A stretch of 64,000 nucleotides of DNA, taken from Coriaria nepalensis. Taxonomy: Eukaryota; Streptophyta; Magnoliopsida; Cucurbitales; Coriariaceae. A program made the position numbers and the translations under genes. The notes beneath the pieces are model-generated. The model did not search any database. It had not been told where the DNA came from and was given only the letters and a program-made list of their open reading frames with translations. Numbering within the stretch: the stretch's first letter is position 1; each line of letters begins with the position of its first letter. Location: the NCBI GenBank assembly GCA_027186245.1, contig CP114482.1:32507209-32571208 (forward strand). Reading direction: 5' to 3'. Below are positions 1 through 58,500 of this stretch, piece by piece.

Positions 1-3000
1 CATGGGAACCCAAGTCATTCCTGTTTGTGGCACAAGATCATCACCCATAAACATATAACCACCACTGTTTAGATCACTGCTCAGGCAATGACCAACCACA
101 TGATTGATAACCCCCTTCATCGCCAGTTGGGAAGGTAAGCTGATTTTAGCACGGCTTAGTCCAAGAATGCCATCTGTTTTTGACATAGTGTTTAAGAGCA
201 AGCCTTGCTGATCATAAGCACACCTTCAAGCAAGTAGAATTCCAAATATTAGATGTTAAGACCTCTGCAAGAATTTATAATACACTCTACTCGAAACCAT
301 AAAATTTAGATCTGAATTCTCATGTTTCGTATGCATGAAGTTTTAAAAGTTAATGGAATTTAGTTTCATTTAGAATTATCCTTTAACTTGTAAATCATGG
401 ATATAATATAGATGGTCCCACCACGTTTACAATACATAGTTTCTTAAACTCCCTTTTAATCCTTCACTTGTTAGTTTAATAAGCAAGTACAAAGGACATC
501 TGTAAGTACTTGAATTCCGAATAACAGAATGGAATTAATCCTTTGAAAATAACCTTTCAAGGTATTTTTTTCCCCTTCCAGCCCATGTCAATGGATTAAG
601 ATAACCAATTTGATTGAATTCTTTTGTGATTTCCACTTGAATCCTTCAATGGAATTGGTTCCAAATGCAGAGAAAAGCTTGAAGGGGGGATGCGTACCCA
701 AAAATGATATCTGATTTGGTTAGTGATCCATTCGCAAGTACTAGATGAAGTTTGTCTTTTGCAAGAACCCCTAAGGAGGAACTTTTATCAGCATACTCGA
801 TCTCGTAGTTGCACTGGTGGCAAGTTTCACAATTTCCATTGTCGTTATTTCTCTGAACTTCCTTGCAAAATGAGTCCTTGAAAGGCACTACATTGTTTCT
901 GGTTGGCTTGTATAATGGACTCCTTCCCTATAACAATTGCATGTATTAGAGAGAAGTAAATGGAAATTTCAAGTAAATTTGACAAGAATTTCAGATCTAT
1001 CTATTCGCTAGAAAAGGAGCATAATGGACTGGTGGAAATTGCATTTATTAGAGGGAAGTTAATATCATAATAGAATCCTTCACTGCATTCATAATATATT
1101 TGAAACATTTGTGACCATGTGTATTATTATGATCTTTAGATGGAGTTCTTAGTTTGTGTAATAGAAGTTTCTTATCCTGACAAGTCCGGTCGATAATCAA
1201 TCCTAGACATTCCTTTTCAATTTGGAAAAGGGTAATTTACTATAACTTTCTTTTTTAGTATTTAGAAATTATATAAGCTTGACATGCGAACAAAATTGAG
1301 CTTACAGCAATGAAAAATTCAGTAACATTTGCTTTCTTTTAAAGATATAACTCCAGTAAAATCTAAGGAAGTTTCTTAGGGTTCATACTTTGTTTCTTCC
1401 CTCATTCCTTTTCTTTCATCTCCTAAATTTCTAAAACTATCAAACTTACGTTTCCTGCTAATTACATAACAAGGCAATTGATATAATAAAGAGGCAATAG
1501 CTAATTACTTGAAATAGCTTCTTTGCAAAACATACGGCTTCAAATATAGAAGGGATAACACCTTGTAAATTTGTTTAAACATCAGACCAATTCAACAACT
1601 GTCATATAAAACTCCTACCTTGGCACAACTACTGCATGGAGCATCACACTGAATCCATGTTAAATCACTTCCAGTATCCACATCAAGAAAATAAGGTCTT
1701 GGAGGATTCCCGACAAGAATAAATGTGTAATACAACCTGTATTCAAAGATCAAAGCAACTAGTAGTTAGTGGTGGTACTAAAAATCCTGTAACTATGACA
1801 ATCAACATAAAATTTGCAGTATATAAGAGAAGATGTCTCGATATTCCAAACGTGTTCACTCATCTACATCTTTGCAAATCAGTGCTGCAAAATGGCCCTC
1901 ATTTCTGAACTATTATAGGCTCATGTTAATAACATGATTGACAAAAATACTATCGTAACTTCACAGATCCTTTTTCATATATATATATTTTCTCTTTGCG
2001 CGAGGTCTTCAAAATAATATGATCTTAGCAGTGCCTGAAAACTTGCCTTTAAATTTGATAATCAATAACACAGTTGTATATATATATCTCGCTCAAGTAG
2101 CACATAATTCTTCCTTTTCAGATGGAGGAAGAATCTGTGTACGATACTAAAAAAAAAAAAAAGAAAAAAAGTTATATGCAGATTCAGCCTTTCTACTTTG
2201 GATGAAGACAAGCAGATCACTTATGTTAAAAAAGGGTGCGAATAATCTGTTTCAGGATAGATCATAGCCCAAACAGTGCATTCTGGAGCTTACTTGCCAT
2301 CTTATCAACTCAAAATCAGTGAGCCATAATTACCTCAATTATAACTATCTCTACCCAGTACATAGTGCAAGAGATTATATATAATAAATTATTCATCTAT
2401 ACGAGCAGAGCAGATGCTAAATTAATTGAAAAGAAGAAAAACTACACACGTAACACACCCATCTGGATAGATATTCCCCCTCACAGGTAAAATAGTGGAA
2501 GAACCAAGATTGGCACCGGAAGAAGAAGAAGTAGAGACCTTCAGATTTTCTTTAAGCCCATCATCGATTGCTACCACCAATTTTTCCTTGTCTACATCCA
2601 TAAATCTTCCTAATTTAAGCTGAACATCTTTTACCCCCAAAAAGACACCAGATTTGGGATACAACGGAAAGAGAAAAGTTTTCGGACCCTCATCGTCATC
2701 ATCATCGGAACGACGTAGTTCGTCAAAGGTCTGAGGAAATATAGAAGAAGCGGAGTAAAGAATTATGGCAAAAAGACAGATACCCAGAAACAGAAAAGTA
2801 TTTTTTCGAAAGAGTCTTCTGGAAGAAAATTGAAGATGAGAAGGGTTTATTGCAGACTGAACAGGAGGAAAGTTCTCTCGTTGATTCTCGTACAAGTGGG
2901 GTTGTTCTTGTATGGAGGTTTGGTGAAATTGCGGAGGGTTAAAGAGTGTGAACGCAGTGATGGTTTTGCCTATGGAGGGATTGTTTGACGGTGGAAGAGT

Positions 3001-3054
3001 GATTATAACAACCCCTTTCACCGGCGGAGATGGACGCTGATCGGATCCCATCAC
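1..3054 (-). CDS. APCB1: APCB1-like aspartyl protease, 3' end outside window
   Basis: Pepsin-type (A1) aspartyl protease with an N-terminal membrane anchor. The exons, read on the minus strand, are 2459-3054, 1619-1736, 698-927 and 1-223. All junctions are GT-AG and the phases agree, giving 389 codons inside the window. Exon 1 opens with a segment containing PPVKGVVIITLPP, as in Arabidopsis APCB1. It then has one hydrophobic segment near residues 85-105 (FLFLGICLFAIILYSAS) and an acidic DDDDD stretch. Exon 2 carries the first catalytic motif, DTGSDLTWIQC. Exons 3 and 4 carry CHQCNYEIEYAD, TDGILGLSRAKISLPSQL and VVGHCL. The second catalytic Asp and the stop lie beyond base 1. In Arabidopsis, APCB1 processes the co-chaperone BAG6 in defence against fungi; that role here is inferred from family identity. 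No frame damage is seen. Confidence 0.93.
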
Positions 3055-10195: not shown

Positions 10196-11250
10196 TCTTA
10201 ATTTACACTCTCATATAGGGTATAGAAAAGCCAAAGCAGTCACAAAGGACAAGAACAATTCCAACGGCCCGTGCTCCTCAAATTGAAGTAGAGGACAGTG
10301 GGGAATGCTCTTCGTCTAATGTACCAACTATGGACCATGAAGTGGCTAATCTATCAGGACGGGATCTTTGCATCATCATTCTTAGAAGCCATGGACTTCT
10401 TAGCGGGTTTGAATCTTCTGTTAAAGACATGAGCAATAATGGTGGACAACGTAACTGTTTCTGGTCGTGTAAGACATGCTCTCATCGAGAACCTGCTCTC
10501 AAAATTATCTGCGATCATTGTGAAGACGCATTTCATTATTCTTGTTGCATCCCCCGTATAAATAAAGTCCCAGTTGAGGAATTGTTTTGTTCTTCATGTG
10601 TGAAAAACAAGCATATTATTTTGAAGGAGAAAGCCTCTCAAAGGAGTAAATGTGGCAGTTCTTCATTCGAGAGGGAATTAAATCCCATAGGATTAATGTT
10701 GAAGAATACTGAGCCTTATACAATTAGTGTTCGGATTGGTAAAAAGTTTCAAGTAAAAGTTCTTGTTGGTCAGGTTCCATGACTAAGTAAGATGTCTTTC
10801 GAACACGTTTGCCAATTTGAACTCATTCAAACTGAGAGACATTATTTTTGGAGAACCAAACTATATGGTGGCTAAAGCTTTGGTTGTGTCTACTTGATAC
10901 AGCGATGTTGATACAGTTGCAGAACCAATTGAAATGGGTTCTACAAAATCTAATGTACATGTAAGGACTAGTTCTACAAATTTTTGTTCATTTCCTTTTC
11001 TAAAATTATTCTTTAATTGTTAAGATGGAAGAAGTAATCCTTACTCCTGCCCCAACCTCGACAATTATAAGTAGAATAGCAAAAAGCTATCAATACATAT
11101 GACTCTGTTGGTAATTGTTTTCAATGTCAAAGGCTTATAGATGACATGGGAAAAGGTTATGATGACTTTATTTGTGGAAAGTCGCGGAGGTAAGGGAAAA
11201 TTATGTGTTACTCTTCGTGTGTGATACTCTAATTTAGGTTTATTTATTTA
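10196..11250 (+). pseudogene. Captured, truncated EHD3-like PHD-finger gene
   Basis: One open frame from about 10240 to 10782 reads RTIPTARAPQIEVEDSGECS, then DLCIIILRSHGLL, then a PHD zinc finger with Cys/His spacing in CKTC, CDHCEDAFHYSC and CSSC. It ends in a segment like the conserved PxGLMLxxTEPYTxxVRIGKxFQ of EHD3-type plant proteins. The Trp normally just before the last Cys pair is replaced (VEELFCSSC). After a stop at 10780 the homology resumes out of frame near 11113 as NCFQCQRLIDDMGKGYDDFICGKSRR and is lost by 11250. EHD3 is a rice flowering-time regulator; whether this copy is expressed is unknown. Upstream it joins directly to Ulp1-element coding sequence, so it looks like a gene fragment carried by, or inserted in, that element. 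Confidence 0.65.
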
Positions 11251-18074: not shown

Positions 18075-21000
18075 AGTTTTTGAAACTCTCAATTTTCAAG
18101 TTAGAACCTCCATAAAGTAATAACATCTCTTTAGTCCTTCTCAAGTGCCTAAGAATGCTCTTGACAACAATCAAATACTTTTTGACTCGGATTTCCTTGA
18201 AACCTCCTTATAACACTTAGAGCATAAGCAACATTTGGTCTCGTACATAGCATATCATACATGATGGTTCCTATTGCCGAAGAATAAGGGATTCATCTCA
18301 TCTCATCTCATCTCTCTCTGATTGTGTCTTGGGAGACATATTCTTGGAGAGGTAGATTCCATGACTCATTGGCAGGAGTCTTCTCTTAGTATCTTTCATT
18401 CTAAACCTCTTTAGCACTTTATCTATGTATTTCGACTAGGTCAAGCATAGTAGTCTTCTCGATCTATCTCTATAGATCTTTATTCCTAGAATATAAGCTG
18501 CTTCACCCAAATCTTTCATTGAAAAGTTCTTTAATAGCCATAACTTTATAGATTGTAACATACCAACATCATCCTCAATGAGTAGTATCTCATCCACGTA
18601 TAGAATTATGAAAGCAACAGAGCTCCTAGTAACTTTCTTGCAAACACATAAATCATCTTGATTCTTAATATAATCAAACAATTTGATCGTTTCATCGAAA
18701 TAAATGTTCTAACTCCGAGATTCTTATTTAAGGCCAGATATGGACCTTTGTAACTTACACAACTTCTTTTTGTTTTTTTGGTCCGTGAAGCCCTCGGGTT
18801 GTATCATATACACATCCTCCTGGAGGAAGCCATTTAGGAAGGCTATTTTTACATCCATTTGTTAGGTCATAATCATGGTATGTTGTAATGGCAAATAATA
18901 TTTGAATGGATTTAGTCATTGTAATGGGTGAGATTATTTCCTTATAATTGATTCCTTCTCTTTGTCTATAACACTTTGCAACTAATCTAGCCTTATAGGT
19001 TTCTTTCCATCTACCTTGATTTTCTTCTTACAGACCCACTTGCATCCTATAGAAACTACTCATTTAGGTACATCCACCAAGTCCCATACTTTGTTGGCAT
19101 ACATGGAATCCATTTCAAATCTCATGGCTATACTTATAGCCATTTCTCAAAATCTAAGCTATTAATAGCCTCAGATTAAATCGTAGGATTATTATCTATG
19201 ATCGGCACATTACTAGGATTTTCTACTAGAAATCCATAACGCTTTGGCCACCTAGGTATTGTATTAGATCTATGAACATTCTATATATTCTAAGGTATAA
19301 CAACATCATCTTTTGGAGGTACCACAACTGAAAGTTGTGGGGTAACAGGATCATCGATCCAAAAATTATTTTGTGTACATAAACTTCATTCAGTTCAATC
19401 TCGCCCCCACTATTCTTTTCGAAAAGGAATTCCTTCTCTAAGAAGTTGATGTGTTTGTCAACAAACACCTTCTTCTCAGTGGGATGATAAAAGTATTATC
19501 CCAAAATTTCATTTAGATACCCCACAAAATAACATTTCTCGGATCTCGCCTCCAACTTTTCTGCTTCTTGCTTCTTGGCATAAGCATGGAAACCCCATAC
19601 GTGAATATGGTTAAAGCTTGCTCTTCTGCCTTTCCATATTTCATATAGTGTTGAAGAAAGAGACTTTGAAGGTATCATGTTAATTATGTAATCAGAGGTT
19701 TTTAGGGCATTTGATAAAGGTAGATCGATAAAACTCCTCATGGACCTAATGATCCCTAAGAGGGTTTAATTTCTCCTCTCAGACATGTCATTCAACTTTG
19801 TTGTTCTGAGAGGGGTCCATTATAAGATCATACAATTCTCTTTCAGGTAGCCAAGAAATTTGTGGCTCAAGTATTTACCACTTCAATCTGATCAAAGTAT
19901 ATTAATAGTTTTGCTTAATTATTTTTCTACTTCATTCTTATGTTCCTTGAATTTCTCAAATGATTCACAAGTTGGCATTGATTCCAAATCAAACGGATTT
20001 AAGTATCCATTTTTATGCAACTTTTGAATCATTGTTTCATTGGCATGACCTAATCAACAATGTTATAGGTATGTTTGATTCAGATCAAACTTTCTTTTCT
20101 TTACTTGTTTATATTGAGGAAAGTTTCATGTTTTCCCTAAAATAAACTATCCATATGGAAAACTAAAATATTGTCATTGATGGAAAAGGAAAACTCTTCC
20201 TTATCAGGTTTAGAGACGGATATAATATTTCAAATTAAAGAAAGTGCATAATAACAATGTCTTAAATCCAAAACTAATCCCGAAGGATAAACTAAACTAT
20301 AAGTGCCTATAGCTAAAACACCAACTCATGCTCTATTTCCAACTTATAGGTCCACTTCACATTTCTTTATAATTCACCTACTTCTTAGGTTTTGCACATT
20401 ATTACAAATATGAGAGCCACAATGGGTATCTAATACCCAAGTAGATAAATCACTACAAGAAAGGTTAACTTCAATCATGAATATATCTGAAGTGGCATCA
20501 CTATGCCTTTTGAGATGTGCAAGACACTTCTTGCAATCTCTCTTCCAATGTTCGGGTTCTTCACTATGGAAACACTTTTTGTCCTTGCTTTTATTGATTA
20601 ACTCCTCTATTATTTGTATGCAATTATGCAATTCTTACAAGTTCATGTCAACTTTAACCATTTAACAATTGCGTACAAATGGAGTAAACGAATTAGGAAG
20701 TGATTGTAATACTAAGTCAATCATCAGTTTAGTATCTATTTCCAAGCCTAGAGTCTCTAGCTTGTCAATGTACACAATCCTCTCATGCACATATTCACTA
20801 AAAGAGGTGCTTACGATCATCTTTAGGTGAAATAATATCTTGGATAACTCATAGATATCCCTTCAACTATCATCCCTATATATTGCTTTAAGGTTATTGA
20901 TAATCTCAATAGCGTGGAATATGCCATAATGGACATGGAGCTCAACAATCATTATCGCAAGCATAATGATTTGCACTTTATTGTCTTGCTTCAGCTATTT

Positions 21001-47594: not shown

Positions 47595-47602
47595 TCACTC
47601 TT

Positions 47603-47607
47603 TAGTT
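47603..47607. repeat. Target-site duplication of element R, left copy
   Basis: TAGTT directly outside the left LTR, identical to 52668-52672 outside the right LTR. Five bases is the usual size for copia integration. Confidence 0.85.
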
Positions 47608-48143
47608 TGTTAATAATATGATATATTTTGGTGGAGTGAAGAGACAAAATTCTCAAAACTCTTTTATTATTCAAACTATCTTCTGTATTTTCTCTCTCAC
47701 TTCTTTTTCACAACAAAATACAACTCTATTTATAGACTTTTAAAACTTTTGAAATTCGTATACAACATAAATGTAAAAACATAATTCTAAATAGCAATAG
47801 TTAAATCTGACCATTGGTTCATAAGATTGCAATAACTTATTATAGGGAACTCCAAAGGACTTAAAACTTGAACCATCAGAACTAGACTTAAAAACATAAT
47901 TCTAAACAGCAATAGTTAAATATGACCATTGGTTACTAAGACTACAATAACTTATTATAAAGAACTCCAAAGGACTTAAAACTTGAACTATCAGAAACTA
48001 GACTCCAAGACACGTCAAATAGACTCCTCATTTTCTCATAATGATCTAGAATTGCTCTTTCAAATTCGCTCATTAATCAGCCTCAAAAAATTGTGCAATG
48101 TGCAGTCACGAATTTAATGGCAAATTAAGTTTATTCATCAACA
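47608..48143 (-). repeat. 3' LTR of R with a private 115-bp tandem duplication
   Basis: 536 bp against 421 bp for the partner. The whole difference is a head-to-tail duplication with unit 47774-47888 repeated as 47889-48003, each starting TAAAAACATAATTCTAAA. On the minus strand TATAAATA (47727-47734) is the LTR TATA box. Confidence 0.92.
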
Positions 48144-48153
48144 CCCCTCCTTA
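48144..48153 (-). promoter_or_regulatory. Polypurine tract of R
   Basis: On the element strand TAAGGAGGGG lies immediately before the 3' LTR start TGTTGATG. This purine run is where plus-strand DNA synthesis would be primed. Confidence 0.85.
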
Positions 48154-50950
48154 AACTTAATTCTCTTTTTTCTTTCATGCCAAGTAGATTTCTCATTTTC
48201 TTAAATTGTCTTGTGGACACTGGCTTTGTAAAGATGTTAGCTGCTTGGTCCTCGCTTATCACATGCACCAGTTCTATCTCCTTTTCCTTCACGTCCTCTC
48301 GGATGAAATGAAACTTCAAGTCAATATACTTGCTTCTTTCATGATGGACAGGATTCTTTGCCAATTCGATCGCTGATCTACTATCCAAGTAAATTTGTAT
48401 GGCCTTCTCTTAAGCAAAATTTAGCTCCTTCAGTAATCTTCTCAACCAGATCACATGACACACACAACCTCTTGCTGCCACATACTATGCTTCGCACATA
48501 GAGAGTGTCACGACTACTTATTTCTTCGACAGTTAAGTGAATGCCATGTCCTCCAAAAAGAACACATATCCCGATGTACTCTTTCGATCATCCTCATCAC
48601 CACACCAATCGCTATCGGAATATCCCACTAGCATGAAATCTTCGGCTTTGGTGTAGAATAACCCAAGGGATTCGGTTCCCCGAATATACCGCAAAATTCT
48701 CTTTACCGCTTTTAAATGCGTATAGACCGGCTCCTCCATGAATTGACTTACAACTCCTACGCTATAAGAAATGTCTGACCTTGTGCATGTGAGATAGCGA
48801 AGACTCCTAACTAGACTTTGGTATTTGGTCGCATCTACTATTTCTTGATTGTCAAACTTAGAAACCCCGGGTTCCATTGGTGTCAATACTAGGTTGCAAT
48901 CCGCCATTTTGTTCATTTTCAGAACTTCTTTTGCATATGTTTCTTTTGACACAAAAATCCCAGTCTTTTCTTGTCTAACCTCCAGACCAAGGAAGTACTT
49001 CATCAAACCCAAGTCCGTCATCTCGAACTCCCGAGTCATGACTCTTTTAAATTCCTCTATCATCTCACTATTGTTCCCCATAAAGATGAGGCCATCAACA
49101 TAAAGAGCAACAAGGAGCAAATTACCTTCATTCTTTTTCACATGTAGTTCATACTCGTATGGGCCTCATATGGGCATTGAGTAAATTCGTTCTTCTTGAA
49201 GTAAGTGTCGATGCGGGTATTCCAAGCTCGAGGTTCTTGTTTCAATCTATAAAGTGCTTTCTTCAATTTCAGCATCTTCTGTTCTTCCCCAATTTTCATG
49301 TATCTAGGTGGTTGCTCCACATACACCTCTTCTTCTAGTACTCCATTCAAAAATGTTGACTTGACATCCATTTGAAAAATTTTCCATTTGAATTGAGTTG
49401 CTTGAGCAATGAGAAGGCGAATCGTCTCCATTCTTGTAACCGGGGCAAAGGCTTCATCATAGTTTATCCCCACCTTTTGTCGATAGCCCTTTGTAACTAG
49501 CCTTGTCTTATACTGCTCTATCTCGCCTTGAGTGTTCATCTTCTTTTTGTATACCCATTTTACTCCTATGGGTTGACTTCCTTTTGGCAATTCAACTAGC
49601 TCCCAAGTTTGGTTTCGCTCGATTGGTTTTATTTCTTCATTCATGGCTGCTTGCCACTTCTCATTTCGTACTGCTTCCTCAAATGTAATTGTTTTGGCAT
49701 CCGCCAAAAGACAAATTAAAAGTACCTCACTTGTCGAGTCATACAAATCTTGCATGCTTCGCATCCTTGGTTATCTTGGCTCATCTTCATCATCAATTAT
49801 TGGTGGATTTACCGGTGTGTTTGTTGGTGTAGTGATTGTACCGGTAGATGATTCTTCTTTCTCAAATATCACCTCCGTTGATTTTTCTTAATCCCACGAA
49901 CTTGACTCGTTTACATGCACATCTCGGCTGACCACTACTTTCTTCTCTATTGGATCAAACAACTTGAAACCTTTTGTCTTTTCATCATAACCGATAAAGA
50001 TGTACCTTTTGCTTTTGTCATCGAGCTTGGTCCTTTTTTGATCCGGTACATGCGCGTAGGCTACACTACCGAACACCTTTAAGTGAGACATGATTGGTTT
50101 TTGTCCGCTCCATGCTTCTTGCGGTGTTTGATCTTCCAACATCACATGAGGGCATTGATTTTGCACATAGATTGCATATAGCACTGCTTCCGCCCAAAAT
50201 TCCTTCGGCATTTTCTTGCTCTTCATCATTGACCGGACCATATCGAGAATGGTCTGATTCTTTCTCTCGGCCACACCATTTTGTTAAGGCGAATATGGTG
50301 TAGTCAAGAATCGTTTGATGCCTTGTTCCTCGCAAAAATTCGTGAAGATGGTTGACGTGTACTCCCCCGCCTCTATATGACCTAACGGCTTTGATGAACA
50401 TGCTGGTGGTTTTTTCTACCTACACTTTGAACTTCTTGAATGAATTTAGAGCTTCAAAATTTTCTTTTAGAAAGTAAACCCACATTTTCCGAGTGTAGTC
50501 ATCAATAAATGTAATAAAGTACCTTTTTTCACCGAAAGATTTTGGAGTGATCGGTCCGTAAATGTCGGTATGTATGAGCTCGAGTAGTTTTTCCGCACGG
50601 TATTCTACCTTTTTCAGAAATGAGGTCCTTACTTTCTTGCCGAGTAAACATCCTTCACAAAACTTGGTGGTGTAGTCCATGTCCGGTAGCCCATGGACCA
50701 TGTTCTTCTTGGCCAATTCCTTTAGGCCACAGTAATGAAGGTGACCGAACCTTAAATGCCACAACTGTGATTTGTCTACATTGTCAACTTGTAGACATTT
50801 TTCCTGCATGTTCCACAAGTTGAGCTTGTACATGCGATTTTTGGCCATTTCGACTTGTGCTACCAAATGCCCTCCATTGCCATTTAATTGTAGTACCCGG
50901 TTTTTCATGAATACTGAGTATCCCTTCTCCATGAGTTGCCCCATACTCAA
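48149..50950 (-). pseudogene. pol of element R: integrase, reverse transcriptase, RNase H (broken)
   Basis: Integrase at 50420-50950 has the zinc-binding LWHLRFGHL and FCEGCLLGK (HHCC). The first two acidic residues are in LIHTDIYGP and FIDDYTRKMWV, and the third in NGVAERKNQT near 50270. Just before that a CAA codon has become TAA, and 50290-50400 is frame-shifted. Integrase end sequence at 49888-50274 includes LKVFGSVAYAHVP. RT spans 48533-49764 in two open frames joined near 49140. It has WVYKKKMNTQGEIEQYKTRL, APVTRMETIRLLIA, QMDVKSTFLNG and, at the active site, YVDGLIFMG. The second catalytic Asp of YVDD is replaced by Gly, which should abolish polymerase activity. RNase H (48149-48670) shows GYSDSDWCGDEDDRKSTSGY and SRSAIELAKNP. 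The 500-residue-scale core is otherwise well conserved. Confidence 0.92.
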
Positions 50951-51034
50951 AATATTGCTCTTAAGATCAGGTACGTAATAAACATCCTCGATTGACCCTT
51001 CTGTACCACCTTTTTATAAATAGTGAACCGTACC

Positions 51035-52190
51035 TTAGCCTTTTACTTGGATCTTTGACACGTCTCCGAATGACATGTGTCCAACTTCAACCTCTCGCAT
51101 CTCCTTGAATAGGTGCTTGTGCCCGCACATGTGGTTGCTTGCACCGGTGTCGAGGTACCAAACTGTGTCGCTATCAGTACTGATATCATTGTATCCCATC
51201 ATGAGAAACCCTTCTTTCATCTCATCCTTCGTGACAAGGTTGGTGTTCTTCTCCACTTTCTTCTCGACATAGCAATCTTTTGCGTAATGTCTGACCTTGC
51301 CACAACTGTAACATTTGTCGAAGTTGCAGCCCTTCGCATAGTAACCGTATTTGCCACACTTATAACACTTGACATTCGAGTTATTTGACCGGCTGCCTCT
51401 CCCATGACCACATCCTCTAGCTCGCCAATTTTGTTGGCTTGACTGCCCCTTCTCCTCATAGTATCCACCTCGATCGCAGCCTCCACCACCATGACCATTG
51501 CTGCGACCTCCATGGCCGCGTCCTCTACCACAAAAGTTTTGAGTATAGAGTACATTTTCGTCTTTGATAGACACCTTGGCTTGCAGCGCTTCCTCAAGCG
51601 ACTCGTTCTTTTTCTTCTTGCATTGCTCGTGTGCCTTTAGCGACCTAGTGAGATCATCAATAGTTAGCTTCTCTAGGTCCTTTGACTCTTCGATGGCGTA
51701 TACGACATTCTCAAAATTGTCGGTTAGCGACCGCATAATTTTCTCCACGACCCTTGAGTCCTTTAGAATTTCACTACTGCACTTGACCTGATTTACCACG
51801 GTTTGCACACGCATGATGTAGTCAGATACACCTTCCGACTCCTTCATCTTCATACCCTCCAACTCGCCACCTAGAGTTTGGAGTCTTACTTGCTTTACTC
51901 GGTTGGCCTCCTTGAAGATTTTTGCAATGTATCCCATGCTTCCTTGGCAGTTGTTGCGCTCGTTATCTTTTCAAAATCCAACTCGTCAACCACTTGGAAC
52001 AACATGTATAACGCTGTCTTGTCTTTCATTCACGTTCTTTTAACGCCTTTATATGATTCGCCGTCTGAACTGTGTTTGCAGCCAGCTCTTCAAAACCGTC
52101 TTTGACTACTTCCCATGCGTCTTGGGCCCCAAGTAGTGTTCGCATTTGGATGCTTCAGTTGTTGTAACTGGCTTTCGTCAATCGTGGCAG
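51035..52190 (-). pseudogene. gag and protease of element R (broken at the N-terminus)
   Basis: The open part is 51035-51937 (300 codons). It runs from a Gag core (SDYIMRVQTVVNQVK), through a Gly/Arg-rich stretch, to two zinc knuckles: CYKCGKYGYYAKGC, in which the His is replaced by Tyr, and CYSCGKVRHYAKDC, which is intact. The protease motif VWYLDTGASNHMCG lies at the end. Upstream, 51938-52190 carries the rest of Gag in shifting frames (MRTLLGAQDAWEVVKDGF, then MKDKTALYMLFQVVDELDFE). A small deletion lies near 52150, where the NYxxWSxxMRTLLG segment has lost its start. Gag would coat the element RNA and the protease would cut the polyprotein. Confidence 0.88.
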
Positions 52191-52231
52191 TGGCGTACCC
52201 CCCACCGACATTCTTTCGGAATTTGCTATTA

Positions 52232-52243
52232 GCTTTGATACCA
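52232..52243 (-). promoter_or_regulatory. tRNA primer-binding site of R
   Basis: On the element strand TGGTATCAAAGC, three bases after the 5' LTR end. It matches the initiator Met tRNA type TGGTATCAGAGC with one difference. Confidence 0.88.
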
Positions 52244-52246
52244 ATT

Positions 52247-52667
52247 TGTTAATAATATGATATATTTCGGTGGAGAGAAGAGATAAAATTCTCAAAACTC
52301 TTTTATTATTCAAACTATCTTTTGTATTTTCTCTCTCACTTCTTTCTCACAACAGAATACAACCCTATTTATAGACGCTTAAGACTCTTGAAATTTGTAT
52401 ACAACATAAATGTAAAAATAGAATTCTAAACAGCAATAGTTAAATCTGACCCTTGGTTATTAAGACTGTAATAACTTATTATAAAGAACTTCAAACGACT
52501 TGAAACTTGAACCATCAGAAACTATACTCCAAGACACGTCAAATAAACTACTAATTTGCCTAGAATGATCTAGAATTGCCCTTTCAAATTCGCTCATTAA
52601 TCAGCTACAAAAAATTGTTCACTGTGCAATCACGAATTTAATGGCAAATTAAGTTTATTCATCAGCA
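52247..52667 (-). repeat. 5' LTR of R, encoding the new C-terminus of IDD
   Basis: 421 bp. On the element strand it starts TGCTGATGAATAAAC at 52667 and ends ATTATTAACA at 52247. A TATAAATA (52366-52373) is the likely LTR promoter, reading leftward into the element. Its first 38 bases continue the IDD reading frame to a TGA at 52630-52632. Confidence 0.92.
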
Positions 52668-53744
52668 TAGTTGATGTATGTAGCAGTAGAACTCTTTTAT
52701 CTATTTCATGACCTTCTGTTTGTTGATCAATTACTTTTCTGATTTGAAATTGTTGTTGGCACGCCCGGCAAGTAATTTGTAAGATGGTGGAGTTCATTTG
52801 TCTAATAGCATGGTCTTTCAAGGCCTGAGCCTTATCTAACTCGGCTTGCGCTTGCTGTCTCATTAGCTTAGCATTCGCAAACTCCTTCTCGGCTAGTTCA
52901 ATCTGCCTCTTTGCCTCCTGCCTTACCTCTTCAGCACGTGCTTTTTCTGCCATGGCAATGTTTAGTTGCTCGTGCGCTCGTTCTTTAATCTTCGAAGCAG
53001 CCATGAACCCAGATCGCTCAGTATCGCTATCACTATGATCGCATGACGATGAGCCAATTGATAGATGCAAATTGGTTGAATGTTGGGTTTCATCTGTTTT
53101 CGGAGAAACTGAAAATTGTTCATAATTCATAGGATTTATATTTGATGATGTAGTAGAGAGTTTAAGATCCAAGTTATGCGAAACGAGGGCTGTGATGGTG
53201 TGAGCGGGCTTAGTCGGTCGAGGAATTGGTGCCAGAGAATGAGGCCAGATAGGAGCAGCTGCGCTGCGGTTGGTGTCTTTGGACGGGGTCGGACTGGAAG
53301 CTGTTCGGGACAAACATGGAGTGGAAGTAGCTGACTGCTTTATTTGTGGTTCTGGATTGAGACGCGCTCCATTATTATTAACATTGCAAGCATCTTGATG
53401 TTCTATAAAGCTCTCCATCCTATAAGACAATGTACGTACAAGATCAATAATTCAAAATATTGTCTCAGATCATCTTCCAACCTATGTACGTACTACAGAC
53501 AATGCTCATAATGAATGAGGAAGAGTCACTTTGCCACTTTACCAAATTCTGTCTATACAATATGCTAAAATGTTCTATAAAGCTCTCCAACCTATGTACG
53601 TACTACTGTTCATTTCGTTTTTAGTATTACCCAGGAAAAAATACATACATTTTGACTAATAAATTTTTTGTAAAAATTACCGATACCTATCTTATTAATT
53701 TTAATAAGACCCCTTAAGTCGTGAAAAGAAAAAAAAATAATATC

Positions 53745-53805
<61 letters not shown>

Positions 53806-54499
53806 GTTATGTTTGCCTTGCAGAGAATAACGTAACACATTGCTTCGTTCCAAGCAACCACCATCGAAAAATAAATCAATCAACTAACCTCGAGAAAACA
53901 CGGCCGCAATCGCAAGAATGACCTCTAGTCCCACAGGTCTTGAGATGTGCTTTGTAGTCTGATTGAACTGCATAACCCTTGGAGCATCTCTCACAAACCC
54001 ACTGCTTACGGTCGCTGTGTTTCCTCCTGAAGTGCTTCTTGATCCCGACAAGATCGCCGAGTGCATGGAACGGGGAGTGGTGCAAGCAGCTTGGCTCGGG
54101 GCATACAAACACGCGCTTCTTCACCGATGCGCTCTCTCTCTTCAGAAACTTCCATGGCACTTTGTGCCTTCGCCGATGCATCTGCAGATTCTGATCTCTC
54201 TGGAATCCCTGCTTGCAGATCTCGCAGACGTAACGGTCCGATTCTAGTAATGTCTTTGGCGAGAGAGACACCACCTCTGCATCCGGATCTGTCAATTGTA
54301 TGCAGTACGTATATCATAAAACTAATCAAGAATTATTTATTCGGACAATAATTAATGTATTAATTAATTGATTCATTTATATACCAGGAGTTCCGGCAGG
54401 CCTTCGTCTTCTCTTGTTGTTTCCATTTTCCGAGCAAGAAAAGGGCTCGGAAGAAATCGGATGGGAGGTGGAGGAAGAAGAGTAGTTATTGGCTAACAT
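52630..54499 (-). CDS. IDD14/15/16: INDETERMINATE-DOMAIN zinc-finger transcription factor (SGR5/IDD14-16 group), LTR-derived end
   Basis: The exons are 54385-54499, 53889-54288 and 52630-53419, with GT-AG introns and matching phases; 1305 bp, 434 residues. Exon 1 ends in the basic KRRRRPAGTP nuclear signal. Exon 2 holds the INDETERMINATE domain: finger 1 (CEICKQGFQRDQNLQMHRRRH), finger 2 (CPEPSC with a distal HFRRKH), finger 3 (CERCSKGYAVQSDYKAHLKTC) and the start of finger 4, completed in exon 3 by MESFIEHQDAC. Exon 3 also has LDLKLS, an EAR-like motif, and a long Ala/Glu/Lys-rich coiled coil (MAEKARAEEVRQEAKRQ) ending QITCRACQQQFQ, typical of the SGR5/IDD14-16 group, which acts in gravitropism and starch or auxin responses. 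Retrotransposon R sits in the last codons: after HTST the frame reads 12 LTR-encoded residues (MLMNKLNLPLNS) and stops. The native ending was two residues (KE) and a stop, now 5 kb away at 47595. No other damage is seen. Confidence 0.93.
52668..52672. repeat. Target-site duplication of element R, right copy
   Basis: TAGTT directly outside the right LTR, identical to the left copy at 47603-47607. It is part of the IDD coding sequence (AACTA on the coding strand). Confidence 0.85.
53460..53610. repeat. Small repeats in IDD intron 2, including a copy of the exon 3 start
   Basis: CAACCTATGTACGTACTAC occurs at about 53478 and again at about 53588. Next to the second, GTTCTATAAAGCTCTCCA (53572-53589) repeats the bases that begin exon 3 (53399-53417). 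The intron therefore carries an extra 35-bp copy of its own 3' junction, including an ATAG acceptor-like sequence on the coding strand. Confidence 0.7.
53748..53806. repeat. (TAT)n microsatellite in IDD intron 2
   Basis: About 19-20 uninterrupted trinucleotides, just inside the second intron and about 80 bases from its 5' splice site. The open frames across it that encode only Tyr or Ile are artefacts. Confidence 0.95.
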
Positions 54500-56189: not shown

Positions 56190-58500
56190 AGGCATCCACC
56201 GTTCCAACTAAAGAGGATGACAAACTCGAAATTCAACTCTGCACACACATAAGCATATCAAAAGTAGACGGCTTAAACTTGCTACGGAAGTCACTTAACG
56301 TATGCCCACTAGTGCTAAATATTGATTTCAAAGCAACAATAGATACTGGGATGGTAAGAATATCTTGAGCAATCAACGCTAGTGTCGGATACTTTTATCG
56401 ATTCAATGTCCACCATCCTAGGATATTAAAGCCATCATGATATGAAATATGACAATCCTTAAACAAATATTATTCTATCTCTGTAACCTGTTGAGTATTG
56501 TCGTCCTTGAACAAACCCTTAAATAGAGGCGCTCTCTATTAGGCATATGAATAGATTCTTCAGTCAAAGACGACTGCTGATATGCTTCTGGTTATGTTAG
56601 TGTAGACTCAGATTGCCATTGTGATTGTGCACCATAAGAAGCTGAATAAACATCATAGAATTGCTCCAACAACACTCATGTGTCTCTTGTTATTGACTCA
56701 GCTTCTCCCTCCAACTGACTATCCTCGTAAATAATTTTGATCATAGAGGCAGTCCCTCGCATCTTGCTTCAGGGATCCAATAACATGGCTATGCAACTTA
56801 GCAAATTCATATGATTCAATTAATGCCAATATTTTGTGATCTTAGTTTGCATCAGCATTGCTGCTTTAACCAAATAAGCATCTTCGCTAAGCATTGTATT
56901 TTTGACCAACTTTATTATATGAAACATGTGCTGACAAAAAAGGTGGATAGTAAGATACAAAGTACCAAACAACTTTTCTACGGATTCTAAAAAACCATGC
57001 ATAAATGATATATATTTTTCTGCCATTTCCCAATCAACCTCTTAAGGATCGCCTGAGAGATCCTTGTCCTCTCTTTACATCCTGCACAAATTTAAACATA
57101 CATAATCCTCAATTTCATGAATATGTAAGAAAATTTAAAAGCTAACTAGCGTTGAAAATTGAAAATCAAAATACCTCATAAATGCCTTACTAAATGGAGA
57201 AACTTTCACAAGCATGAGATACGTGGAGTTCCACTAGGGGTATTCATCCACAACTTTTGGTAAGAAAATAAGTCGTCCTTTTCTGTGAAATATCTTGAAA
57301 ATTTTCTCTCGACCATATGTTAATTGGATATATTTCACAACTCTTCGAATCTTATCAATCGAGTCGATCGATGGTGACGAACTCTCTTTTATGATTACAT
57401 TCATAATAGGACAAGCACACCTATCATTAAGAAAGAAAAAAATCGTCAATTAGTAAGTGTACACCAAACATGAACAATCTAAAATAAAAAGGACTACAAA
57501 GTGAATATCAAAGACGTACCTAGAATGAATGAAATTCCTTTCAAGTAACAAATGTGAATGCGAAAGCGCAGGCCTTAAGTAATCAACGCCTATATCATTT
57601 GCTAATGCATTGTCCACAGTCACACATCCGAGACGAAACCCCACTCAAGAATAGTGTCATCCATAATTTTCCCAATTATCACACCCTTGTGGTCTTTAGT
57701 GGTCTTAAAAAAACAAATCACCTTCTTATATAAATACTAAGACTCATCGATGTAGTGAGTTGTAACACACATGTAATTTTAATTATGCACTGACATCCAA
57801 GTGCTGGTGGTGAGGGAGACCCCACCATTAAACTTAAAAACCTTTTTCAACTTCACTTTCTCTTCTCTAAACATCTTAATTGCATCACGTGCTTAACGTT
57901 ACGGTATGGGCATATGTGGATCCACTAAGTAGATCGTCTGCTTGAACAAAGGGTGATCCACTGTGTTGAAGGAATGCTATGTTCCAATCATCCACCACAT
58001 ACTGCCTGCTCTGTTGGTGGTCATATCAAATTTGAACATAAATTTTAAGATCGAATTAAATTACATGTGGGTAACCAACATTTTCTTGCATCACAGTTTT
58101 CATAGATATTAGGAGGTTATCCTTCGATTTATTTTGCACCAAACCCAGACACTTTGGTATGTGGTCATTCATTGTAGAGGTCCTAGTCTTGGGACCCCTA
58201 TACGTAGTAGAGTATCGACAATGTTGATAGAAGACATGTTCTTTTTCACGATTCCTAACGAAGATATTCCAAGTTAGACTCCTCTTAGATCTCTTTACAG
58301 GACCCTTAACATCTAGATTTGCACCTTCACTTTCATTCTCAATAACATCTCTAGGAGGACTACTACCATGAGTATCCTTACGATCGCCACTTGAATGAGG
58401 TGGCAATTCAGTACTATCATCGCTGTCAATTATTTCTGGTGCTGTAATTAAATCTTCTAGTCTAGTAGTTCACATATGTATAGGTCGATGAGTTCCAGTT
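56190..58500 (-). pseudogene. hAT-family transposase with BED zinc finger (broken)
   Basis: Reads right to left. The N-terminal acidic region precedes a BED finger near 58180-58300 (SLTWNIFVRNREKEHVFYQHC, ending STMNDHIPKC). Then VKLKKVFKFNGGVSLTTSTWM near 57820 (the family's RISLTTDxW). Then WGF and TVDNALANDIGVDYLR at 57560-57640, the conserved VDNASAND segment. Then DSIDKIRRVVKYIQLTYGRE near 57350, MLMQTKITKYWH at 56820, and near 56380 FNILGWWTLN followed by LTIPVSIVALKSIFSTSGHTL, the C-terminal dimerisation region. Stops and shifts separate these pieces. It is similar to RICESLEEPER/DAYSLEEPER-type proteins but is clearly a dead transposase copy. Terminal inverted repeats were not located. 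Confidence 0.85.

Follow-up and report, generated by a model that had tools for sequence, protein, structure and literature searches.

The IDD gene and the element at its 3′ end

The window, a stretch of 64,000 nucleotides of the Coriaria nepalensis genome belonging to contig C2, carries on its minus strand a gene of three exons with intact splice sites. Exon 1 lies at 54385..54499, with its ATG at 54499; exon 2, which holds the bulk of the zinc-finger (ID) domain, at 53889..54288; and the native portion of exon 3, as far as a retrotransposon LTR, at 52668..53419. All three were placed by translation, supplemented by the exon join (exon 1), by the Pfam BIRD-IDD fingers (exon 2) and by alignment to a sister copy on contig C16 (exons 1 and 3). 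Translation across the joined exons confirmed that all of them are open, as the first-pass annotation of the window had claimed. The product is an INDETERMINATE DOMAIN (IDD) factor in which Pfam recognizes, above cut-off, BIRD-IDD fingers two to four together with a zf-C2H2 finger (PF22996, PF22995, PF22992, PF00096). Of the best 120 of 3,545 matches, none above 70% identity, those that are named are mostly SHOOT GRAVITROPISM 5 or indeterminate-domain 14/16 proteins from flowering plants; judged by these closest matches, the protein is of the SGR5/IDD14-16 type. No protein more than 71% identical was found among the best 120 of 3,545 matches to the C2 protein or the best 120 of 779 matches to the C16 protein, a result without bearing on expression either way. 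A PDB search was uninformative, its matches being limited to generic zinc fingers and a portion of JACKDAW (5b3h).

The four-finger ID domain and the coiled C-terminal region of SGR5/IDD14-16 proteins are both present in the C2 copy. Across the 120 homologues the C-terminal tails are free to vary, and no other part of the protein is so poorly conserved in this clade. Many of the homologues, as well as a second, more distant IDD pair of the same genome (contigs C13 and C19), have a DENSLVLSYMSSA-like block near the C-terminus, whereas the C2 and C16 copies are both without it; its loss would therefore be older than their split. Within intron 2 (53420-53888), the start of exon 3 is repeated as a short stretch (AGGTTGGAGAGCTTTATAGAACAT) near 53600, preceded by a possible splice acceptor; a (TAA)n tract also lies in this intron, near 53750-53805.

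The minus strand of the window was read from 56500 to 47000 and the junctions were then computed. The IDD frame runs through a 5-bp target-site duplication, AACTA (52668..52672, minus strand), into the 5′ LTR of a Ty1-copia element; a perfect match to this duplication lies on the far side of the element (47603..47607, minus strand). The new end of the protein is HTST-MLMNKLNLPLNS, followed by the stop TGA at 52632-52630. This LTR-derived end of the frame (52630..52668, minus strand), established by sequence reading and the computed junction, begins with a codon made up of one duplication base and two LTR bases, and its stop corresponds to bases 36-38 of the LTR; the protein is today 434 residues long. 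When the flanks are joined over one copy of AACTA, the frame has 424 residues and ends in HTST-K-E, the remainder of the K codon, the E codon and the TGA (47597-47595) being found at 47595..47602 on the minus strand. The insertion point is two codons ahead of the original stop. The earlier proposal that the gene owes its last 12 codons and its stop to the LTR holds to the base, and the shared orientation of gene and element that it described is likewise correct, both being on the minus strand.

The element itself, which is classed as a Ty1-copia LTR retrotransposon, extends on the minus strand from a 5′ LTR of 421 bp (52247..52667, sense to the gene, with TATAAATA at 52373), delimited by LTR comparison and sequence reading, through an internal region (48144..52246) to a 3′ LTR of 536 bp (47608..48143), delimited by LTR comparison. 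Both LTRs are bounded by TG..CA. The primer-binding site TTGGTATCAAAGC, which we take to resemble initiator tRNA-Met, follows the 5′ LTR, and the purine tract AAGGAGGGG precedes the 3′ LTR. Pfam pieces occur in the order gag_2, Pol_BBD, gag_pre-integrs, SH3_retrovirus and RVT_2, that is, with the integrase side before the reverse transcriptase; no Pfam match to the integrase core was found in the five element pieces searched. As traced from these and from three-frame pieces, gag-pol is broken by 11 in-frame stops and 4 frame changes, about 15 disruptions in total over about 4,062 nt, counted by eye. The 3′ LTR includes a tandem duplication of 115 bp (47774-48012), which the 5′ LTR is without; its copies are 89.5% alike over 124 bp, and thus about as diverged from one another as the two LTRs are. 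Other elements also appear to be present in the window: pieces resembling a relic of a hAT-type transposase lie upstream of the IDD gene (56200-58470, minus strand), and minus-strand ORF pieces at 18436-20634 resemble another, more broken copia-type element, both as judged by eye.

At least 40 copies of the LTR were scored in the genome and 30 LTR loci were fetched. Host or unassigned DNA lies upstream of the LTR in 16 of the 30 fetched copies, the window's included. The window copy is alone among these 16 in that a long protein frame enters the LTR (261 aa upstream); the next longest entering frame is one of 74 aa, of low complexity, at locus L020. The 12-codon LTR frame is entered at four of the 16 junctions (L008, which is the window copy, L020, L028 and L034), and the start of the LTR shows little variation among 31 aligned LTRs. 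The 12-codon frame thereby reads as a feature of the LTR family and not of the window copy alone. The 36-bp tail in the window has one silent change relative to most family members, and is too short for a test of selection. At L020 (G000:C13:6482223-6482647) the LTR closes the 74-aa frame with the same LMNKLNLPLNS; the low-complexity frame upstream is probably no gene.

An empty site in the sister copy and the age of the insertion

The genome (316 Mb, 20 contigs) was searched with the IDD protein. A close paralogue is located on contig C16, 94% identical over residues 38-177 and 84% over residues 167-421. It has no element at the site and ends in ...DTSAKE-stop, the codons being TCA GCT AAA GAG TGA in C16 and TCA ACT A[element]AA GAG TGA in C2. 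The old ending HTST-KE-stop that had been deduced from the flank join is thus also present in the paralogue, and a chance reading of the IDD-LTR frame can be dismissed because this uninterrupted copy has its KE-stop at the equivalent place. The C16 paralogue is a natural empty site for the insertion within the same genome and is decisive: the coding end of one of two duplicates has truly been replaced by the LTR. Shortly before its end, the C16 copy also contains 18 bp, in frame, that are absent from the C2 copy.

Upstream DNA can be aligned between C2 and C16 from the gene to about 55296. Silent divergence is 0.248 between the C2 and C16 copies and 0.203 between the C13 and C19 copies, which have the longer tail usual in the clade; such similar values would fit a single duplication episode for both pairs, to which gene order around C2 and C16 adds little. 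A PHD-finger-like ORF in the window (10219-10779) has its best paralogue (75%) at C16:3888891, 0.9 Mb from the IDD sister and in an orientation flipped like that of the IDD gene. A comparison of 30 kb of C16 with the window gave six further DNA matches, 65-70% alike. For the ORF at 2425-3054 of the window, a second copy was sought in the genome and none was found.

Across 421 aligned sites the two LTRs of the window element show 38 differences (K2P 0.097). For seven LTR pairs, both ends were present in the set of 30 fetched loci, and these were dated; the window pair is the most diverged, the others ranging from 0.022 to 0.095, in agreement with the earlier view that the insertion is old. With plant substitution rates taken as 7e-9 to 1.5e-8, the insertion would be about 3-7 million years old. 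As LTR divergence per lineage amounts to 39% of the silent divergence between C2 and C16, the insertion is younger than the duplication, an order that the empty C16 sister also requires. Neither intron 2 nor the 3′ flank aligns well enough between C2 and C16 to be used as a clock. In the family tree the two LTRs of the window are not sisters, the support of the intervening nodes being 0.10-0.78; an origin of the pair by recombination between elements was considered, and is opposed by the perfect target duplication.

Selection on the C2 copy

We propose the following history. A duplication gave rise to two genes of the SGR5/IDD14-16 type, the C2 copy and its C16 sister; afterwards, a Ty1-copia element inserted in sense orientation two codons ahead of the C2 stop, and 12 LTR codons took the place of KE in the C2 frame. 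The insertion is established by the target duplication, by the divergence of the LTRs and by the uninterrupted C16 copy. Transcripts of the C2 copy, if made, would stop at the poly(A) signal of the LTR. The exchange of tails was probably near-neutral, conservation within the clade being lowest at the very end of the protein, and the C2 copy would be a redundant duplicate under relaxed constraint, not one refined around its new end. We give this account as a whole a probability of roughly 60%.

The strongest alternative, a substantial possibility even if the less probable one, is that the C2 copy is decaying: it would be silenced together with the element, or its RNA degraded because the 3′ UTR is very long, and the frame would be open merely for want of time. 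The state of the frame speaks against this, as no stop or frameshift is found in 1,266 nt and the splice sites are intact. With the gag-pol of the element as a yardstick, 4.7 disruptions would be expected over this length (P 0.009 for none) or 3.4 if stops alone are considered (P 0.03); this yardstick, counted by eye, may be too fast because some breaks may predate the insertion. The LTR clock alone is kinder to decay: it predicts 2.2 stops (P 0.10 for none), and a slower clock 1.4 (P 0.25).

Conserved positions were compared across the best 120 of 3,545 homologues. Conservation reaches at least 95% in 190 columns, and the C2 copy deviates at 10 of them, the maximum among 121 proteins (next highest 9, median 1). 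At five of these 10 columns the C16 sister deviates too, four times with the identical residue. The remaining five changes are private to C2 (L86F, D110S, C112F, V173M and A337V), whereas the sister has no such change of its own (p 0.06 for five versus none). Two of the private changes are located in the LHHDPC motif of finger 2 (HHSPF in C2 versus HHDPC in C16). Such departures from near-invariant positions are what a decaying copy would show; together with the LTR tail, they set the C2 copy apart from the other SGR5/IDD14-16 proteins. From the 48 amino-acid differences between C2 and C16, 9 in gappy columns were set aside and 23 were unassignable; 12 fell to C2 and 4 to C16 (p 0.077).

Under a codon model of the whole gene, omega is 0.49 on the C2 branch versus 0.21 in the rest of the tree (p 0.038, uncorrected). 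For exons 1-2 the values are 0.96 versus 0.06 (p 0.012, uncorrected), and for exon 3 alone, 0.52 versus 0.30, no difference was found (p 0.22). Fixing omega at 1 on the C2 branch costs nothing, so that neutrality of this branch is not rejected, as decay would have it. Silent changes are poorly assigned to branches because the C13 and C19 outgroups are near saturation. If equal silent rates are assumed instead, a clock-based omega of 0.36 (interval 0.24-0.44) is obtained for C2 and of 0.12 for C16; the value for C2 is clearly below 1, which speaks against decay. Nevertheless, a copy that evolved like C16 before the insertion and neutrally after it would be expected at 0.46, or at 0.29 if LTRs mutate twice as fast, close to the estimate. 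The first-pass annotation had suggested that the gene has lived with an LTR-derived end. The exons that stayed open while gag-pol was broken lend this some support; the departures at conserved sites, more numerous than in the sister, and the raised omega weaken it. The evidence is mixed and the counts are small, and it leans towards a relaxed duplicate.

The end of the RNA and LTR-terminated genes

A candidate poly(A) signal, AATAAA, lies in the 5′ LTR at 52302..52307 (minus strand), 323 nt after the new stop. RNA of the C2 gene probably ends in this LTR, at a point that would be about 340-370 nt past the new stop, as in RPP4/COPIA4; termination there would provide a complete new 3′ end and avoid a 3′ UTR of about 5 kb. 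A second AATAAA, at 52659, is found inside the 12 LTR codons; if this signal were used, the RNA would be cut near or ahead of the stop. Alternatively, transcripts might retain their former 3′ end in the native flank, either by traversing the entire element or by having it removed through splicing, which we regard as improbable. That flank does still align with the sister just past the 3′ LTR, in two pieces at 84-85% down to 47260; however, read-through alone would still leave an LTR-coded end, and the 3′ UTR would exceed 5 kb; to restore KE, the final bases of exon 3 would have to be spliced to a point just past the 3′ LTR. An artefact of assembly at the IDD-LTR junction, in favour of which nothing was found, is least probable of all, given the perfect 5-bp duplication, the TG..CA ends, the complete element and the collinearity of the two flanks with C16 on either side of the empty site.

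Plant genes that end in the 5′ LTRs of copia elements are already known. In Arabidopsis, RPP4 transcripts have poly(A) sites in the 5′ LTR of COPIA4, and the 5′ LTR of COPIA-R7 terminates a short transcript of RPP7 (PMC7529245). The C2 gene shares with them a copia element in a host gene, with a 5′ LTR that serves them as polyadenylation site and here offers a candidate signal; with RPP4/COPIA4 and genes like it, it also shares a sense LTR at the 3′ side of the gene. The positions differ: the LTR lies in the 3′ UTR of RPP4 and in an intron of RPP7, whereas in the C2 gene it lies within the last codons and adds amino acids and a stop. Use of the LTR by RPP4 and RPP7 has been shown by RNA, while the C2 case is known from DNA alone.

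Termination of transcripts within transposable elements is described as frequent in Arabidopsis, with LTR/Copia over-represented in one class of such events (PMC10241880). Poly(A) signals in elements 3′ of genes are common to those sites and to ours; those sites were defined by direct RNA reads, ours by genomic sequence. In human genes, 256 cases of LTR sequence in protein-coding regions are reported (PMC2008291). The C2 gene resembles them in having LTR sequence inside its coding region; however, the human cases include exons born by splicing, whereas here the element inserted directly into the coding end and the empty site is kept in a paralogue. No IDD gene ended by an LTR was found in the titles and abstract openings of the open literature, from which absence from print is not claimed. 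Beside RPP4 and RPP7, the C2 gene is a further clean case.

A more far-reaching reading, which we consider unlikely, takes the C2 copy for a functional but changed regulator: its SGR5-type fingers would be shifted at near-invariant positions, its last 12 residues, its stop and its mRNA end would all come from one copia LTR, and its expression would depend on termination there that is sensitive to silencing. At present, the locus is a well-documented example of a mechanism that has been described in plants before. It also amounts to a natural experiment: of two duplicates in the same genome, one ends as before and an LTR caps the other, and the insertion has been dated and can be compared with an empty site. 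If transcripts of the C2 copy end in the LTR, the pair would show the one-step replacement of coding end, stop and terminator by a retrotransposon, and whether such a replacement relaxes or redirects a developmental regulator.
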